Shown: piece by piece, positions 1-8,270 of the stretch
Layout: the number at the start of each line of letters is the position of its first letter
How positions within the stretch are numbered: position 1 is the stretch's first letter
IMG/VR virus record: IMGVR_UViG_3300032770_000034
Location: 1 to 46,876 of that record
DNA length: 46,876 bases
Direction: 5' to 3' (one strand)
DNA from: a virus
The notes under the pieces: model-generated
What the model was told of the DNA's origin: nothing
The model's input: the letters and a program-made list of their open reading frames with translations, nothing else
The model's database searches: none
Position numbers and translations under genes: made by a program

Positions 1-143
1 CTCTTACGTCGTCCGTCGCGCCAGACCTCGGGGTCGACGTCCGTGTGTCGGTCGGCCCACGAGGCCCAGCCGAGGCCCAACAGGAAAACGACGGCGAGCG
101 CGATGAGCGAGGCCGCGTGCGGGGTCGGTCTCACCTCAATCAT
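1..143 (-). CDS. Small membrane protein, 3' end cut by window edge
   Basis: The ATG at 143-141 overlaps the stop codon of the upstream hypermodification gene, continuing the stop/start coupling seen through the operon. The visible 47 residues give a short polar N-terminus, one hydrophobic segment at about residues 13-28 (ALAVVFLLGLGW core), then a charged tail. This looks like a single-pass membrane protein with its N-terminus inside. The reading frame is open to the window edge, so the length is unknown. I do not recognise a family; position alone cannot say whether it belongs to DNA modification or to another module. Confidence 0.55.
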   Translation of the reverse strand, partial: MIEVRPTPHAASLIALAVVFLLGLGWASWADRHTDVDPEVWRDGRRK

Positions 144-1002
144 GTCGATACCGGGACCGGGGGCGCCCCTCCCCATTCTGAACGCGAAGATATTTGTCTG
201 TTTCGCATAAGGAATGCTCAATGTCCCGCATTTCGAGCGTCGGGAACCCACGAGGCAACCGGGTTCGGGACTCCCGAAGCAACTCGCGCATTTCCTCGTT
301 CGCTCGGTCTTGCTTTAGCGGGAAGGTCAACGATCGGCCGGCGAGCCGGTTTAACCCGCGAATCGCTCCCGGGCCGGCATTCGCCCAGGTGTGGGTGTCG
401 GGCGCGTGTTGAAGATACCGCGTGTGCCGGAGATCGGTTACGACCTCGTACGCCATAAACCCGCCCCACCCGTGGAAGCGGAGAAACCACCTGTGGACCG
501 CGCGGAGCGAGGGAGCGGCGGGAGCGTCAAACAGCCGAGCAAACTCGGACCGGTGCTGCCACAATGACCCGCACACTGTGTAGATGGTATAGGGGTGCTT
601 GCTTCCGCCGTACGCGATGTCGCCCCGAAGCATGTACGCGCCGGTGTATACTTGTTCCCCTCGCCGTTTCCGCGCGTCGAGTGCGGCGACCGCGTGCCCC
701 GGGGACCAGGCCCCGGTTCTCGGCCAGGCCCGCCCTGTAGCAATAAGCTCCTGGAGTGTGGCGGGATGACCGATTTGTCTGGCCAAGCACAGCATGAACC
801 ACAAGTTGGGATGTTCGGCGTAGGGCTCCCGGATATGTTCCCGGATCCAGATGGTAACTGCATCGAGCTCCCGAAACACGTTGCAGAAGCGGAAGTCCTG
901 AAGAATTTTATCCTGTGTCCAGGGCCACGGCTTCCCCGCCTGCCGGGTCCGGTAGATGCGGTGACGTTCCGCTATCCAATACCACAACGGGGTCGCGTTC
1001 AT
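136..1002 (-). CDS. 5-hmdU DNA kinase-type helical protein (thymidine hypermodification)
   Basis: This 288-residue protein carries the signature of the helical domain associated with 5-hydroxymethyl-dU DNA kinases: an N-terminal RHRIY..RQAG..PWPWT stretch followed by FRFCNVFRELDAVTIWI near residues 38-54. In characterised thymidine-hypermodifying phages this domain belongs to the enzyme that acts on 5-hmdU in DNA. Here it is a separate gene, with the P-loop kinase two genes upstream and a methyltransferase between them. The ATG at 1002 overlaps the stop of the methyltransferase gene (ATGA); a TTG 15 bases upstream is less likely. Family assignment is from recognised motifs, not a search. The exact chemistry of a stand-alone copy is not established; DNA binding or base recognition for the kinase is an inference. 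Confidence 0.7.
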   Translation of the reverse strand: MNATPLWYWIAERHRIYRTRQAGKPWPWTQDKILQDFRFCNVFRELDAVTIWIREHIREPYAEHPNLWFMLCLARQIGHPATLQELIATGRAWPRTGAWSPGHAVAALDARKRRGEQVYTGAYMLRGDIAYGGSKHPYTIYTVCGSLWQHRSEFARLFDAPAAPSLRAVHRWFLRFHGWGGFMAYEVVTDLRHTRYLQHAPDTHTWANAGPGAIRGLNRLAGRSLTFPLKQDRANEEMRELLRESRTRLPRGFPTLEMRDIEHSLCETDKYLRVQNGEGRPRSRYRHD

Positions 1003-1694
1003 TTTGGTCCCCAACAAAAAATACAGCGGTCATGGAACGTTTTGATGGTTGAGGCGCCCGACGCTAGGATTCGTTCGTACTCCGGCGGGGCGTGCACATG
1101 CCGAAATCGGGACGCGAGCCAAGTGAGCCGGCGCGCGAGTCCGCGGGTGCTGGAGTCGCGGGAGGTGTGATACTCCACCACCAGTTTTGCGGTCCGAGGG
1201 AGCAGATGAGCGTCGAAGATCGCCATTTCCGCCCCCTCGATATCCATTTTTATTCCGTCGAAAGTCGCCTTGCACAAGGTACGCATCGGCCAGTTCGGTA
1301 CCGTTCCTGCAAAAATCATGGACGGGGACGGAACCGTCGTTTGCCGGTAATGGTCCGCGGGCCGAGCGCTCCGAAACAGATCAATGGTGTAGGTCGTGTG
1401 CGCCGTGACGGCGCCGCGAATACAGTTGAATCCCGGCGGGCAATTTTGTTGCAATAGCGCAAAGCACGTGGGGTCGGGCTCGAAGGATTGGACCCACCGT
1501 GCGCCCCGGAGGGCCGCGTAGACCGCGAACGCGCCGATATTGCCGCCGAGATCGAGCCACCGCTCCCCGACTTCGACGTCGAAGCCGAGCCGTGTACGAC
1601 GATACGCGTGCCGAGAGATCACTTCCTCGACGACCCGTTCGTCACTCGTTCCGGGGCGCAACGTCATCGAAAAGGGGCCGAAGTTCCGCCTCAC
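999..1694 (-). CDS. FkbM-family SAM-dependent methyltransferase
   Basis: A 231-residue class I methyltransferase. The SAM-binding motif DLGGNIG lies at residues 48-54, an acidic ribose-binding position follows at E72-P73 (FEPDP), and the FkbM signature KMDIEGAE is at 149-156, followed by VVEYHT. FkbM enzymes usually methylate hydroxyls on sugars or polyketides. The start is GTG at 1694, overlapping the kinase stop codon (GTGA). It lies between the 5-hmdU kinase and the helical protein, so a role in modifying the base or its appended amino acid is the natural inference. FkbM enzymes are not among the well-known thymidine tailoring classes (radical SAM, PLP decarboxylase, flavin lyase, acetyltransferase). 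An alternative is methylation of a small molecule or virion glycan. Confidence 0.8.
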   Translation of the reverse strand: MRRNFGPFSMTLRPGTSDERVVEEVISRHAYRRTRLGFDVEVGERWLDLGGNIGAFAVYAALRGARWVQSFEPDPTCFALLQQNCPPGFNCIRGAVTAHTTYTIDLFRSARPADHYRQTTVPSPSMIFAGTVPNWPMRTLCKATFDGIKMDIEGAEMAIFDAHLLPRTAKLVVEYHTSRDSSTRGLARRLTWLASRFRHVHAPPEYERILASGASTIKTFHDRCIFCWGPK

Positions 1695-2260
1695 CGGAGC
1701 CTCATGCGGAGAATGGGCAACGGATTGCGGTAGTCAAGCCAGAAGGGGAAGAGCCCATCGGCCGCGGCCTTCTCATGATTGGTCCGGCAGCTGTGCCACT
1801 TGGGCGTGAGCGAATTGGCTGGGTCCCATGGCTTTTCGTTCCCGGCTGCGCGCCGGCGGGCATTGACCCGGTCAATACACACGTCGAGCGGGGTATCGAG
1901 CGAGGCCCAGAGGAACCTGTCCCCGAGCTCGCGGGCGAGGTCCCGATACCGGGCATAAATCTGACTCACTAACAGCCCCTCGAACACCACGTGCGTGTAC
2001 CGTCCCGCAAATTCGAGCACTCGGGCACAAATTTCATCTTGTGTCTTGATCATGTCGCAGCCGCCACAGGCCGTCTCGTACCGTCCGACGACCGCGAGCG
2101 CGTGGCCGTCGACCGCGTATCCAACCACCTCGGCCGCTTCAATCGAAGGGGCGCCCCGGAGCTCGCCGCGGAGGATAGGCCGTATGGACCGATGCGCTAT
2201 GAGCTGGCGCACGATCGTCGACTTCCCCGACCCCGAGGTCCCCCGGAGGTTAAGGATCAT
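1691..2260 (-). CDS. P-loop 5-hydroxymethyl-dU DNA kinase
   Basis: A 189-residue P-loop kinase with Walker A GTSGSGKST at residues 7-15. It has the family-typical GYAVDGHALAVVGRYETACGG region (about 47-67) continuing into CDMIKTQDEI, and a hydrophobic VVFEGLL strand at 91-97. This pattern matches the kinases that phosphorylate 5-hydroxymethyl-dU in phage DNA, activating the base for amino-acid attachment (ViI, SP10, M6 systems). The start ATG at 2260 overlaps the stop of a 57-residue gene; a longer frame exists upstream but runs antiframe to two genes. It is part of the run 4158 to 136 of tightly coupled modification genes. No 5-hmdUTP synthase is visible in the window, so the substrate base must be made by a gene outside it. 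Confidence 0.8.
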   Translation of the reverse strand: MILNLRGTSGSGKSTIVRQLIAHRSIRPILRGELRGAPSIEAAEVVGYAVDGHALAVVGRYETACGGCDMIKTQDEICARVLEFAGRYTHVVFEGLLVSQIYARYRDLARELGDRFLWASLDTPLDVCIDRVNARRRAAGNEKPWDPANSLTPKWHSCRTNHEKAAADGLFPFWLDYRNPLPILRMRLR

Positions 2261-2430
2261 CGACCCTGGGCCACGTGCCCGAGCTTGCGCGCGAACTTCT
2301 TCGCGCTCGCGTACGACGTTCCGGTCCAGCCGGCTTTTTGCGCGAGCAACATGATGCGCGCCTTCTTTTCGGCATTGGTTTCTAGCCGCTCTCGCCGGAG
2401 CAACGCGGCGGCTTCGGTTCGTAAGCTCAT
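2257..2430 (-). CDS. Small basic helical protein of the modification operon
   Basis: A 57-residue protein rich in Arg, Lys and Ala and predicted by eye to be mostly helical. It ends with a basic AKKFARKLGH stretch. The ATG at 2430 overlaps the stop of the flavoenzyme gene (ATGA), and its own stop overlaps the kinase start, so it sits inside the translational chain. The repeated leader element CCACGACGGAG lies 9 bases before its start and is also coding sequence for the end of the flavoenzyme. I do not recognise a family. A small DNA-binding or kinase-accessory subunit would fit the context, but nothing in the sequence proves it. Confidence 0.65.
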   Translation of the reverse strand: MSLRTEAAALLRRERLETNAEKKARIMLLAQKAGWTGTSYASAKKFARKLGHVAQGR

Positions 2431-3239
2431 TCGGTCGTACTCCGTCGTGGGAACACAATGCGCGGGGCGTAGTGCCCCGCGAGAATAGTGGAGGACTTGC
2501 CCCCCGCCGTCAACACCCACGTATGCGGGGCAATGCGAACACACAACCCGGTTTTCTGGCCCCGGATTGTTGGACGGTAGCCCTGGATCACGTGAGCCGA
2601 CCACGTTCCCCGGTCGACGGCCGCGGCGCACCGAGCCAGGGACTCGCGCTCCCGCACGAGGCTGTAGTTCTGTGCCAGAATGGCCGAGTCGTCTCCGGCC
2701 CAGGTCCACCCCAGGTCACGCTCAAACGCGAGCAGTTGCTTGTACGGGGCCCAGGGCTGAAGGAGAGGTTGTAGAGGAGCCCCCTGCCAAAGAAAGGCAC
2801 TTCCCGCGAGCGACTGAATCGGTGCGCACAAGTTGTGCGCAAGGACACCGCTCCACACCCCGGCGGCAATGACCACCGTGCCAGTGTACGAGACCCCGCG
2901 CTCGGTCAGCAAGGTCCCCTTCTGAACGGATAGGACGCGCTCGCGCTCCGCGGGAACCTGGAGCAAGCGGGGCGAGACGAACGGAATACTCCCCTGCTTC
3001 GGAAACTCGACCCAGTGGAGCCCGGTTCGACTTACTTCGGCCAGCACATCGAGCGCCTTTCGGTACGCGTCGGGCGCGAGCGGGCTCCACGGGGCGTGCA
3101 TGAGTCCCGCGGACGCCGGCGTCCCCGCCCCGGGCCGCGCGTCGTCGAACCAGACGACTTGAAGGCCGTGCCGTTGCGCATAGCGCCCGAGCACGGCGCC
3201 CATCACGCCCGCCCCGACAATGAGCAAGGGCTCACGCAT
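2427..3239 (-). CDS. FAD-dependent oxidoreductase/lyase of thymidine hypermodification
   Basis: A 270-residue DAO/glycine-oxidase-like flavoprotein. The N-terminus LLIVGAGVMGAVLGRYAQRHG (about residues 5-25) is a Rossmann dinucleotide-binding motif with GxGxxG, followed by an acidic strand end (VVWFDD). A second FAD-binding strand TVVIAAGVWSG occurs in the middle, and a conserved-looking GYRPTIRG lies near the C-terminus. It is shorter than typical glycine oxidases (about 360 residues). Flavin-dependent lyases are known to trim amino acids attached to 5-hmdU in phages such as M6. Sitting directly after the amino acid:DNA transferase, it probably oxidises or cleaves the appended amino acid. 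Its last codons contain the repeated leader element used by the next gene. Confidence 0.75.
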   Translation of the reverse strand: MREPLLIVGAGVMGAVLGRYAQRHGLQVVWFDDARPGAGTPASAGLMHAPWSPLAPDAYRKALDVLAEVSRTGLHWVEFPKQGSIPFVSPRLLQVPAERERVLSVQKGTLLTERGVSYTGTVVIAAGVWSGVLAHNLCAPIQSLAGSAFLWQGAPLQPLLQPWAPYKQLLAFERDLGWTWAGDDSAILAQNYSLVRERESLARCAAAVDRGTWSAHVIQGYRPTIRGQKTGLCVRIAPHTWVLTAGGKSSTILAGHYAPRIVFPRRSTTE

Positions 3240-4158
3240 CGTAGTTCTGGAGTTGGCGCTCGATAAGCACGTCCCGGCAGCGCGCGGCGGTCGGCCCCCA
3301 CCCCTTCAGGGCGTGGAGGATTTCCGTGGTGTCTTTCCCCACGGGGTAGTGCCCGGTCACGTGCGCCTTCCACTTACACAACACTGTTTCGATTTCCTGA
3401 ATCCGAAAGGATGTGCCCGGGGGAGCGTGGGGAACACCGATCCCCTGCATCCGTTTCTGTAGCCCGCGGAACACGCGTTCCGTGAGCGCGCGTCGTTCGG
3501 GTAGGGAGCACGCGTCGTGATACTGGGTTAAGCGGTCCCGAATCTCGGCATCCGTGCCCAACAACCCGTCGTCGCGGAGCACCGTGCGGAACCCCTCCCA
3601 CTCGTTCCCGACGTGCGTGCTCGCAGCAACGGCGTCGAGGTGAAAGGCCCACACGGCCCCCGTCATCGGGTCGTCAAAAATGTGCTCCGGGACCGCGTCC
3701 GCGAAATTGACGGGAACTCCGAGCACGGCGTCGAGCATGTCGGCGACCTTGAAGGCAATCCAGGGGCCAAACCCGCTCCATTCGCGCACCGCGCGTGCAA
3801 CCTCGGTGAATTGCGGTGCACTTTGCGCGAGGGTTGTCGTCACCGTCTCCGGGAACGGGAAGCGGGCCGCAAGGTCCGTGACCGCGGCGACCGCGAGCGA
3901 CCCGCGAAAATGGCGGCGCTCCGTGCCCCGGGGAAATTGGTGTGAGCCGGACAGGTGCGCGCGGGCCCGATCCCAGAAGCGGGCTCCCGCGCACTCGGAC
4001 AAGGCGCTTGCCACTCCGGCATGATAGAACATCCAATAGGCCAGGCACCAACGCGCCCGGTGCCCCGCCGGAAGCTCCGCTCCCCGGAGCATCAGGTAAA
4101 TCGGGTCGAGATCCCCGGTGCGCGCCAAAACGGCGCCGAACTCTTCTACCGTGTACAT
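3232..4158 (-). CDS. aGPT-pyrophosphorylase-type amino acid:DNA transferase
   Basis: A 308-residue protein resembling the alpha-glutamyl/putrescinyl-thymine pyrophosphorylase group. Recognised features are LDPIYLMLRGAEL near residues 17-29, the aromatic-rich WCLAYWMFYHAGVAS at about 37-51, FWDRA at 61-65 and FPRGTERRHFRG at about 75-86. In characterised phages such enzymes displace the pyrophosphate/phosphate of activated 5-hmdU with an amino acid. The reading frame is open upstream, but that part runs through a tRNA-like sequence, so the ATG at 4158 is chosen. Only one base separates it from the tRNA-like 3' end, and no clear Shine-Dalgarno is visible. It is the first gene of the modification chain, and its stop overlaps the flavoenzyme start. 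Confidence 0.7.
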   Translation of the reverse strand: MYTVEEFGAVLARTGDLDPIYLMLRGAELPAGHRARWCLAYWMFYHAGVASALSECAGARFWDRARAHLSGSHQFPRGTERRHFRGSLAVAAVTDLAARFPFPETVTTTLAQSAPQFTEVARAVREWSGFGPWIAFKVADMLDAVLGVPVNFADAVPEHIFDDPMTGAVWAFHLDAVAASTHVGNEWEGFRTVLRDDGLLGTDAEIRDRLTQYHDACSLPERRALTERVFRGLQKRMQGIGVPHAPPGTSFRIQEIETVLCKWKAHVTGHYPVGKDTTEILHALKGWGPTAARCRDVLIERQLQNYDA

Positions 4159-4159
4159 A

Positions 4160-4230
4160 CTGCGCTTTCGGGATTCGAACCCGAATAGCCGGGGGCTAAC
4201 CGGCCGCTTTGCCAATTAAGCGAAAGCGCG
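4160..4230 (-). tRNA. Degenerate tRNA or tRNA-like element
   Basis: The minus strand folds as a cloverleaf. Acceptor CGCGCTT pairs with AAGCGCA except for a C1-A72 mismatch. The D arm GCTT/AAGC encloses a loop containing GG. The anticodon stem is GCCGG/CCGGC with loop TTAGCCC, and the T stem TCGGG/CCCGA has a canonical TTCGAAT loop. The anticodon would be AGC, formally Ala, but C at position 37, a 3-base variable loop, no encoded CCA and no G3-U70 pair make the isotype doubtful. It ends one base before the transferase start codon. It may be a functional phage tRNA, a decaying one, or a tRNA-like leader. Confidence 0.6.
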
Positions 4231-4244
4231 AACCAAACGGGGGG

Positions 4245-5238: not shown

Positions 5239-6684
5239 TCAAAAGTTCCAGGCGGTCCCGGTTTGCGGCAGGACCAACGTGAGCGATTCCCGGGCGCGCG
5301 TCACGGCAACATATTGCACTCGGCGCTCGGCGTCGGGAGCCAGTTGCGCCATGGCCGCGGCCTTCGCCGAAATGTCGGTGAGCAACACCACGTGGTCCGC
5401 TTCGGCCCCCTTCGCGGAGTGCACCGTGCCGATCGTGACCCGGCCGGGAGCCGTGAGGGACTCGCCCGATCGGCGCAGCGCGCGGATGTACTCCCGGTCC
5501 CGGAGCGGGATGTTGGGGAGCGCAGTGAGCCACGAGTGCTCTCGGAGCGGCGAGTCCGCGGGAAACCACGTCGCGAAGTCCACCGTGCGCGCCCCCCGCG
5601 GCAGCGCACGGCGCTCCGCGAGGTAGCCGTTCACGTTCTTCGCCTCGGGGGCGGGAATGCTCTTCCCCTTGCGCAGACGTTCCCAGGAGACCGCGGCCCG
5701 GACCGCGGGAAGGGACCACGACCACGTTCCGTTCGGGAGGGAGTAGACGACACCTTGCTGGCGGGCCTGATGCCGGAACTGTTGCAACTGGTAATTGTTC
5801 CGCGCGAGCAGTAACCAGGTCCCCGCTTGATGAAGGTCAACGGCTTCGGGCTCGTTGATCCAGGTCACGCGCCCGTCGACCGGGCGGGGTGCGAACACCT
5901 TGCTGACCCGGCTCCGAATTGTGGCCGCGAGCCGATCGGCGAGGGCCTTCACTCGCCGCGGCAGTCGATAGCTCACCGGGAGGACCGCGCGGTCGCCTCG
6001 AAAACGCAGCAGCTGCGTCGCGTCCGCGCCGGCCCAGTGGTAAATCGCCTGGTCGTCGTCGCCCGCGAAATACACCACTGGAACATGCGCCGCCACCCGA
6101 CGCAAAAACGCCCACTGCGCGGTGGAGGTGTCCTGCGCCTCGTCGATACAGAGCACGTCTAAATCGAGCCGCCCCTCCGCGCGCAGGATCATGTCGTCGA
6201 AATCGAGCAACCCGAGATCCCGTTTGAAGCAGGTGTACATCTGGATCGTTTGCCGCACGAGCCGCCAGGGCAAATCGACCCCGAGCGCGCGCCACGCATC
6301 GTTCAACGACACCCCGCGGGCGACCGCGAGAGAGTGGACCGCGAGGCACACATCACCCAACACCCCTTCAGAGGGGTCGCCGGGGGTACGACCGAACGGG
6401 ACGCCCACCGCGCGTCCGAACGTGGCCAAGTGTTCGGACGTCACCACTTGTGCGGGGCGGAGCTCTAGGAGGAAGTAGGCGAGGGAATGAATCGTGCGAA
6501 CGTACGGGAGCTCGACCTCGGGGGCGTGCGCCTTCGCCTCGGCGATCGCGCGCCGGGTAAACGAGACGAACCCGATGCGCTCGGGGCGCACGCCCCGGCT
6601 AAGGTGAAACCGGACCCGGTTCAGCAGCGCCGTGGTTTTCCCGGTTCCCGGAGGGCCGAACAATACATGGCGTTCGCGCCGCAT
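5239..6684 (-). CDS. UvrD/Rep-type superfamily 1 DNA helicase (first copy)
   Basis: A 481-residue SF1A helicase, compact compared with UvrD (about 720). Walker A GPPGTGKTT lies at residues 10-18, motif Ia FVSFTRRAIAEA at 39-50, Walker B DEAQD at 181-185 and motif III AGDDDQAIYHWAGAD at about 207-221. Motif IV is YRLP at 239-242, motif V TIGTVHSAKGAEADHVV is near the C-terminus, and motif VI YVAVTRARESL is close to the end. It would translocate on single-stranded DNA during replication, recombination or repair. The ATG at 6684 shares one base with the primase stop (TGATG); the frame is open further upstream but antiframe to the primase gene. It differs strongly from the second UvrD-like gene, so the two are not a recent duplication. 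Confidence 0.9.
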   Translation of the reverse strand: MRRERHVLFGPPGTGKTTALLNRVRFHLSRGVRPERIGFVSFTRRAIAEAKAHAPEVELPYVRTIHSLAYFLLELRPAQVVTSEHLATFGRAVGVPFGRTPGDPSEGVLGDVCLAVHSLAVARGVSLNDAWRALGVDLPWRLVRQTIQMYTCFKRDLGLLDFDDMILRAEGRLDLDVLCIDEAQDTSTAQWAFLRRVAAHVPVVYFAGDDDQAIYHWAGADATQLLRFRGDRAVLPVSYRLPRRVKALADRLAATIRSRVSKVFAPRPVDGRVTWINEPEAVDLHQAGTWLLLARNNYQLQQFRHQARQQGVVYSLPNGTWSWSLPAVRAAVSWERLRKGKSIPAPEAKNVNGYLAERRALPRGARTVDFATWFPADSPLREHSWLTALPNIPLRDREYIRALRRSGESLTAPGRVTIGTVHSAKGAEADHVVLLTDISAKAAAMAQLAPDAERRVQYVAVTRARESLTLVLPQTGTAWNF

Positions 6685-8270
6685 CAGAAATCGTCGCTCG
6701 GCGTAAAGTCGGCCTTCGGTACGGGATCGTCGTCCTGGTCCCAGTCCGTCCGGATCGGGAGCGACCACACGTTGATGAACTTTCCCTTCAAGTGCCACTG
6801 CGCCTTGTCGGCCCCGTGGTGCCGGAGCAACTGCCACACGGCTTGCGTGCTCGGGTACCGGATCTTGCGCGCATCGAGGAATCGGAACAGGTCGTGCGAC
6901 CGAAAGTAGCACACACCGTTCTCTCGGTACGGCTTCCCGAGCCATACTTCTTCTCGATCGAGCGCATTGGCCGTTTGCTCTGCGAACGCGACCACATGGT
7001 GCCAGAGCTGCCCGGTCGGACCCGCGTCGTCCGGCATGAGCACCACGTCCGCCCCCACGATCAATTCGGCCAGGTAGCGTAGCCACCGCGCCGGCGTCAT
7101 ATGGATCGGAATCGTGTTCGCTTGTGCCATGACGGCTCGGTTAAAGTCGTCGCGGGCGTAAAACGCCGAGTTGGAGACCATGACGCGTTTCCCGTTCACC
7201 TCCATCCCCCACATCGGCTCGTCCCCGTGCGACGAGTCGTACCGCGTGAGACTCGAAATCGTATAGCCCTTCACGTCGCTCGGCCCCTCGCCCACGCCGA
7301 ACTCGCGCCGCGTACACACCCGCCGCTGACAGCACGCATTGATGGGCGGTTTTGAGCACGCGTATGCGTAGTCCTTCTTGCCGTTGCTTTTCGCGAGGGA
7401 CACGAGCTCGCGCGCGGGAAGATGGGCCATTTCCTGGTTATACCGGTCCAAGTGTTTCTCCCAATCGTCCCCATAGCGTTTCTTCAGGTAGACAATCACC
7501 GCCATCATGCCCTCGTTCCGCGTCCCCTCCACGAATCCGCCGTTGAGGTGAAGAACTTGGAGACAGGGAGGGCCTTCCTCGAACAGCACATCTGTGGTGG
7601 TTTTCGCGTCGAGCTCGGCGAGGGAGAGGCGAGACGCTTCGGCGAAGTCGAGAAACTCGGCGAGCGACAGCGCCCGGCCGTTCTTCAGCGCCGGGCGCGT
7701 CCCCCCGTAGTAGGGCAAATTGATCCAGTTCCCGATGTCGTTCGCCGAAAAGCGAACACTTTGCTTCGGAAAGGTTTCCGTCTTGGCGGCCATGCCCAGT
7801 TGCGCCTTCCACTCGTCCAATCGGTCCCGGAGTAAGGCCGCGGGAACCGGCTCGCGAAGGAACACGTAGAAATGACCGCCCCCTGATTTCGATTTACAGA
7901 GCACGAGTGGTAGTCCGAGTCGGCGCACCGCGGCCTCGGCCTTCACATGGTCCATGGTCCGCACATCGTAGTCGATCGCGCCGAACACGCACGTATCGTC
8001 GTCGCGCAGCATAATGATGCCGAGGCCGGGGCCCGTTCCCGCGAGGTGTCCCGCGTACGTGGCGAGCGTCGGCGCGCCGGCGACCGTGGAAGCGACTCCG
8101 CCGATTTTGCCGTTTTCGCCCGGCTTCCCGAGGGTGTAGGTGCCGTGCGCGCGCGAGTAGCCCGCGAACAGCGCTGCGAACCGCGAGACGGTACGGGCGC
8201 CGAGGAGAGGATCGGCGCCCGTGGTGGAAGTCTCCGGGTTCGGTGGTGGGTTAGAACGGTTCCTTGCCAC
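6684..8270 (-). CDS. Archaeo-eukaryotic primase-type DNA primase
   Basis: A 528-residue protein with the catalytic pattern of AEP primases of the TOTE/phage type. FGAIDYD places metal-binding acidic residues at D100 and D102, followed by SGGGH (129-133) and then VRF. A nearby GNWINLPYYGG matches the conserved end of the core. A PriCT-like helical part (GTRNEGMMAVIVYLKKR..., about 249-265) is followed by a Cys cluster at 305, 313, 314 and 319 that may bind zinc. The remaining C-terminal part is not recognised. It would synthesise primers at the fork and is flanked by a helicase and an ssDNA-binding-like protein. Its start lies 20 bases inside the upstream gene's 3' end. Confidence 0.85.
   Translation of the reverse strand: MARNRSNPPPNPETSTTGADPLLGARTVSRFAALFAGYSRAHGTYTLGKPGENGKIGGVASTVAGAPTLATYAGHLAGTGPGLGIIMLRDDDTCVFGAIDYDVRTMDHVKAEAAVRRLGLPLVLCKSKSGGGHFYVFLREPVPAALLRDRLDEWKAQLGMAAKTETFPKQSVRFSANDIGNWINLPYYGGTRPALKNGRALSLAEFLDFAEASRLSLAELDAKTTTDVLFEEGPPCLQVLHLNGGFVEGTRNEGMMAVIVYLKKRYGDDWEKHLDRYNQEMAHLPARELVSLAKSNGKKDYAYACSKPPINACCQRRVCTRREFGVGEGPSDVKGYTISSLTRYDSSHGDEPMWGMEVNGKRVMVSNSAFYARDDFNRAVMAQANTIPIHMTPARWLRYLAELIVGADVVLMPDDAGPTGQLWHHVVAFAEQTANALDREEVWLGKPYRENGVCYFRSHDLFRFLDARKIRYPSTQAVWQLLRHHGADKAQWHLKGKFINVWSLPIRTDWDQDDDPVPKADFTPSDDF

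Follow-up and report, generated by a model that had tools for sequence, protein, structure and literature searches.

Recurrence of an FkbM methyltransferase beside 5-hydroxymethyluracil genes of phages points to an unreported methylated DNA base

Introduction

The operon studied here, from IMG/VR virus record IMGVR_UViG_3300032770_000034, has its closest described counterpart in Pseudomonas phage PaMx11. The PaMx11 genes are ordered as amino acid:DNA transferase (ADDT; gp46, a glycinyltransferase with structure 8z2m), flavin-dependent lyase (gp47, 8z2o), GNAT acetyltransferase (gp48), kinase (gp49), the '5-hmdU DNA kinase helical' protein (HEL; gp50), a thymidylate synthase-like gene (TS; gp51) and an HD gene; 5-hmdU stands for 5-hydroxymethyldeoxyuridine. 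Its set of kinase, glycinyltransferase, lyase and HEL is a known one that gives N-alpha-Gly-T and 5-aminomethyldeoxyuridine (5-NmdU). Pseudomonas phage M6 also has an ADDT, a kinase, HEL and TS, and is reported to use radical S-adenosylmethionine (SAM) and pyridoxal phosphate (PLP) enzymes. The modified base of M6 is 5-NedU (PMC11946847).

The window, i.e., the whole stretch of DNA that was analysed, comprises 46,876 nucleotides of the virus record. According to the analysis of open reading frames (ORFs), its operon consists of six genes on the minus strand (4158..136), listed here from the first gene to the last:

3232..4158, minus strand: ADDT, probable 5-phosphomethyl-dU glycinyltransferase, 308 aa, start ATG 4158 (PF18724 and homology to 8z2m)
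2427..3239, minus strand: flavin-dependent lyase (DAO fold), 270 aa (PF01266 and homology to 8z2o)
2257..2430, minus strand: small basic ORF, 57 aa, sharing 4 nt (ATGA) with each neighbour
1691..2260, minus strand: P-loop 5-hmdU DNA kinase, 189 aa, Walker A GTSGSGKST (by orthology)
999..1694, minus strand: FkbM-family SAM methyltransferase, 231 aa, GTG start (PF05050 and fold of the AlphaFold2 model)
136..1002, minus strand: HEL (aGPT-PPlase1), 288 aa, start ATG 1002 (PF18723)

Across all six genes, neighbours share 4-8 nt with the next gene and third-position GC amounts to 0.71-0.79, which argues for coding and coupling beyond chance. An earlier note on this DNA had described five linked genes. 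All five are real, lie on the minus strand within 136..4158 and belong to the families that it named (PF18724, PF01266, PF05050, PF18723, and PF18748 at a score below the cut-off but backed by orthology). The operon has a sixth gene, however, since the 57-aa ORF, without any Pfam family match, lies between flavoenzyme and kinase, and the kinase starts at ATG 2260 instead of 2458.

ADDT, lyase, kinase and HEL occur in the same order in PaMx11, with 34-41% identity in alignments. PaMx11 differs in having the GNAT gene between lyase and kinase and in lacking FkbM. In the window, the 57-aa ORF occupies the position of GNAT, and FkbM follows the kinase and precedes HEL. Compared with M6, the operon has a lyase and FkbM instead of radical SAM and PLP enzymes. 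The idea of a wholly new enzyme combination was therefore dropped for ADDT, lyase, kinase and HEL, a set that PaMx11 already has and a precedent that the earlier note had overlooked, but it holds for the addition of FkbM, which is the sole unprecedented part of the operon among the annotated phages searched.

Enzymes of the amine route

Pfam assigned ADDT to PF18724 (E 2.5e-20), and a phmmer search against solved structures matched it to the PaMx11 glycinyltransferase (8z2m/8z2n; E 1.8e-49), to which it is 41% identical when aligned with gp46. The PDB title of 8z2m reads 5-phosphomethyl-dU glycinyltransferase, PaMx11. Similarly, the flavoenzyme matched PF01266 DAO (E 1.7e-15) and the flavin-dependent lyase 8z2o (E 5.1e-34). 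A conserved lysine of the lyase, K249 in gp47, aligns with K229 in the window; entry 8z79, which differs from 8z2o by V in place of this lysine, is presumably an engineered mutant.

The kinase scored slightly under the 27-bit cut-off of PF18748 HMUDK_HMUD1 (25.8 bits, E 9e-6), and for this reason its identity was based on orthology: it is 59% identical to the kinase of the nearest relative (locus L002) and 34% identical to PaMx11 gp49. It matched the profile of our kinase family A5 with E 1.9e-78, as a member of that family itself, and had zero matches to solved structures by sequence. The best PHROG match of the window kinase is PHROG 800, labelled terminase small subunit, so that annotation of such kinases may be misled; a feature named 'terminase small subunit' also lies under the HEL match in one PaMx11 record.

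The homology of ADDT and lyase to the solved PaMx11 enzymes, together with the matching core gene set, makes it very probable that the window encodes a PaMx11-type route, predicted from sequence to lead to 5-NmdU, that lacks GNAT but has gained the 57-aa ORF and FkbM. The logic of the earlier note, from 5-hmdU via phospho-hmdU to an amino-acid adduct, is borne out by this homology to the PaMx11 enzymes. Its expectation that the product would differ from those of M6 and ViI also agrees with a PaMx11-type set giving 5-NmdU. Radical SAM and PLP enzymes were absent from the operon in the Pfam scan, which took in part of the window ORFs of a contig that is probably incomplete, as it has no terminal repeat.

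The same gene order, ADDT-lyase-kinase-FkbM-HEL, was found in IMG/VR contig 3300045747_000487 (L005), whose FkbM is 50% identical to that of the window. This contig differs by an extra ParB-like gene and by TS and HD genes downstream.

The FkbM methyltransferase and its clade

FkbM matched PF05050 with 30.8 bits (E 3.8e-7; curated cut-off 22.7), and its AlphaFold2 model (predicted local distance difference test, pLDDT, 95.3) has a SAM-methyltransferase fold. The earlier note was right to raise methylation as a possibility. Sequence comparison with solved structures gave no real match.

We scanned IMG/VR, whose records are often fragments, for close FkbM relatives (8 loci), for FkbM more widely (80 loci) and for the lyase (52 loci), and located ten families on all scanned loci by means of profiles. 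Reduction to sequences <97% identical to one another left 57 FkbM representatives. HEL is rare, as it occurs in 100 of 50,697 phage records. HEL adjoined FkbM in 8/8 loci of the first scan. The HEL-linked FkbMs, including that of the window, form one clade of 16 (support 98/99), and all 16 members have HEL in the same phage record, mostly adjacent among the 15 nearest relatives of the window FkbM. In the sixteenth member (L048), HEL lies at another place of the 104-kb record, as do kinase and TS.

For most characterised members of the FkbM family, the substrates are small molecules and sugars, which would fit an FkbM that works off the DNA bases, on a nucleotide, glycan or protein, or that is a mere passenger. 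We regard this as very unlikely in view of the 4-nt overlap of FkbM with each neighbouring gene, the presence of HEL with every clade member, and the TET/JBP genes that adjoin its distant kin. Equally improbable is a plain PaMx11-type operon with 5-NmdU as final base and an inactive or decaying FkbM. In its favour, the core set is intact and the nearest relative (L002) lacks FkbM, but the FkbM frame of the window is also intact and retains all 34 residues that are invariant in the clade. We consider it likely that FkbM methylates some base derived from 5-hmdU.

Neighbourhoods of FkbM relatives

TET/JBP was found near FkbM in 36 of the 57 representatives and HEL in 15; the other six included two with TS and one with ParB. 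Eight representatives combine HEL and FkbM with a TS-like gene, and their fetched stretches were free of kinase, ADDT and lyase. In one of these arrangements (L027), HEL overlaps with FkbM, and a single opposite-strand ORF separates the pair from TS. Searches of 12 whole records of this HEL-FkbM-TS type yielded neither ADDT (PF18724) nor kinase (PF18748 and the A5 alignment). One of these records, with 67,368 bp, is complete, as indicated by its 123-bp terminal repeat and by HEL running over the ends. FkbM occurs with a kinase, and usually with ADDT, in the window, L005, L009, L011/L012, L017, L021 and L034; lyase is part of these loci in the window, L005 and L034. The abundance of relatives in which kinase, transferase or lyase was not found suggests that the place of FkbM is not necessarily the last step of the amino-acid route.

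The TET/JBP-FkbM-ParB cassettes of Pelagibacter phage HTVC112P and cyanophage MED4-117, in which ParB, TET (PF12851) and FkbM are adjacent to each other, have a homologous FkbM (28-34% identity) beside a presumed enzyme for making 5-hydroxymethyluracil (5-hmU). In these phages a dioxygenase replaces the hydroxymethylase, HEL is absent from the genomes, and no kinase, ADDT or lyase was found near FkbM. HEL was absent from 8/8 TET-type records tested. Since none of the 24 records searched, mostly of the TET/JBP-linked type, has a C5-cytosine methyltransferase, the TET of these relatives probably acts on thymine.

Three loci had unusual gene content. L113 has a cluster of lyase, ADDT and kinase-like gene with ParB and TET/JBP in place of HEL and TS, possibly a hybrid of two ways of making 5-hmU. 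A glutamine-amidotransferase-like ORF (L012, 4238..4981; begins MCGIVG), perhaps a tailoring enzyme, lies just ahead of ADDT-FkbM-HEL, and a divergent dinucleotide-binding oxidoreductase-like ORF (L017, 4166..5089), possibly a distant flavin lyase, directly follows ADDT.

The target of FkbM

All three contexts of FkbM share a presumed source of 5-hmU, which singles out 5-hmdU as the most economical substrate and its O-methylation to 5-methoxymethyl-dU as the most economical reaction. From these neighbourhoods, we judge the chance that FkbM targets the 5-hmdU hydroxyl itself to be about even.

The main rival, and our first favourite, is that FkbM is the final tailoring enzyme of the amine route and N-methylates 5-NmdU to 5-(methylaminomethyl)-dU. 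This would be a DNA parallel of MnmC, which acts on the wobble uridine of tRNA, where a flavin-dependent step removes a glycine-derived group before methyl transfer. FkbM does co-occur with the lyase in three loci; PaMx11 has an acetyltransferase beside its lyase, presumably serving the same amine; and GNAT and FkbM were never found together in 58 lyase loci (0/58, loci not deduplicated). The survey of FkbM neighbourhoods led us to rank this explanation lower, as the majority of FkbM relatives were without kinase, ADDT or lyase. Moreover, a single clade of lyase-linked FkbMs was rejected (p-AU 0.0003), and kinase-linked and kinase-free FkbMs could not be told apart at any column of the alignment, in which 34 positions are invariant. 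We see no sign of an FkbM re-specialised for the amine. The likeness to MnmC is one of logic alone: the substrate of MnmC is tRNA, its methyltransferase half is of another type than FkbM, and Pfam matched the FkbM protein to no MnmC-type methyltransferase family up to E 1. N-methylation seems rather unlikely.

Still less likely, in our view, is that FkbM methylates the adduct with the amino acid, or a different atom of the hypermodified base (e.g., the carboxylate or nitrogen of the glycine), prior to cleavage by the lyase or in its place. This would suit L011/L012, L017 and L021, where FkbM clusters with ADDT and without the known lyase, but it leaves the ADDT-free and the TET-linked FkbM loci unexplained.

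Several observations weigh against O-methylation of 5-hmdU. The fold of FkbM resembles those of O-, N- and C-methyltransferases to much the same degree; when O- and N-methylation were compared by fold, the best matches were tied (fibrillarin, Trm5, RlmL and others). A single clade of all kinase-linked FkbMs was rejected more weakly (p-AU 0.027) than that of the lyase-linked ones. The window itself carries kinase, ADDT and lyase, so that FkbM could use their products. In the HEL-FkbM-TS loci, the lyase search covered the fetched stretches rather than whole records, FkbM and TS are separated in some loci by unassigned ORFs, potential further modifiers, and the TS-like proteins, putative hydroxymethylases, may instead be thymidylate synthases. 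Finally, the window yielded no TS-like hydroxymethylase; the contig stops 135 bp beyond HEL, the last gene of the operon. As TS follows HEL at a distance of about 500 bp in L002 and immediately in L005, we infer a hydroxymethylase beyond the contig end.

On balance, our favoured explanation, which we hold with even confidence, is a post-replicative thymidine hypermodification operon that combines the amine route with an FkbM methyl ether. The dUMP hydroxymethylase beyond the contig end would put 5-hmdU into phage DNA, and HEL would bind and flip this base. By homology, the P-loop kinase would phosphorylate the 5-hmdU hydroxyl to 5-phosphomethyl-dU (5-PmdU); as in PaMx11, ADDT would then swap the phosphate for glycine, and the lyase would cleave the glycine adduct to 5-NmdU. 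With the same HEL, FkbM would transfer a methyl group from SAM to the 5-hmdU hydroxyl, giving 5-methoxymethyl-dU. The phage would then carry two distinct decorations at its thymine sites, with protection against restriction as their purpose; the methylated base is probably a shield against restriction enzymes.

We know of no report of 5-methoxymethyl-dU as a natural DNA base, and none of the open-access papers searched names FkbM in connection with hypermodification. The natural phage bases given in one paper include 'methylated 5-aminomethyluracil', with no phage named in the passages concerned (PMC11550810). That FkbM recurs in many other phages next to genes for making or binding 5-hydroxymethyluracil points to an unreported methylated DNA base.

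The HEL protein

HEL matched PF18723 HMUDK_hel with E 8.8e-52, and its AlphaFold2 model had a pLDDT of 94.3. The best structural match of the model is the PaMx11 glycinyltransferase 8z2n (Z 11.8), followed by helix-hairpin-helix DNA glycosylases of the OGG, AlkA and EndoIII types (Z 8-10), although helical folds may score high by chance. Foldseek matches were weak (E 0.17-0.5), and a profile comparison of HEL with ADDT gave E 0.003 at a probability of merely 10%.

HEL accompanies a kinase in 51 loci without FkbM. Conversely, Brevibacterium phage LuckyBarnes combines HEL with TS and two glycosyltransferases, and in Microbacterium phage Zepp a few kb hold HEL together with TS and two glycosyltransferases; no kinase was found in either phage. 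The occurrence of HEL beside kinases, FkbM or glycosyltransferases, partners whose common task seems to be decoration of the hydroxymethyl group, suggests a shared partner for recognition of 5-hmdU rather than a part of the kinase. Going by its model, HEL has a DNA-glycosylase-like fold, and it is probably a shared 5-hmdU-binding partner. A natural HEL-kinase fusion in phage M6 was also considered and rejected, as its 505-aa frame is a stop-to-stop reading across two separate adjacent genes.

Our broadest proposal is tentative, at slightly less than even confidence: FkbM beside HEL or TET/JBP may represent a widespread phage family that O-methylates 5-hmdU, with HEL as a general flipping adaptor for interchangeable kinases, methyltransferases and glycosyltransferases. 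If true, methyl-ether capping of 5-hmdU would be a new chemistry in phage DNA, and the presence of a so-called kinase helical protein in phages without a detected kinase would be accounted for. The prediction would be testable on the cultured phages HTVC112P, MED4-117 and LuckyBarnes, and the enzymes could serve as tools to write and detect 5-hmU in DNA.

Other features of the window

One further feature lies immediately before the start codon of ADDT:

4160..4230, minus strand: tRNA gene (RF00005, 43.8 bits; ARAGORN tRNA-Ala(agc) at 4159..4231)

This tRNA gene was found by a local search and missed by the default Rfam search of the whole window. The anticodon agc is rare in bacteria. Because the tRNA gene ends one base ahead of the ADDT ATG, either tRNA processing would leave the ADDT mRNA without a leader, or translation would start at an alternative upstream TTG (4215) inside the tRNA gene.

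Outside the operon, the window contains phage-like genes for primase, helicases, portal, terminase and tail proteins. The primase (6684..8270, minus strand) is of the archaeo-eukaryotic type and matches the TOTE conflict-system primase model PF22548, with two UvrD-like helicases in the same region.

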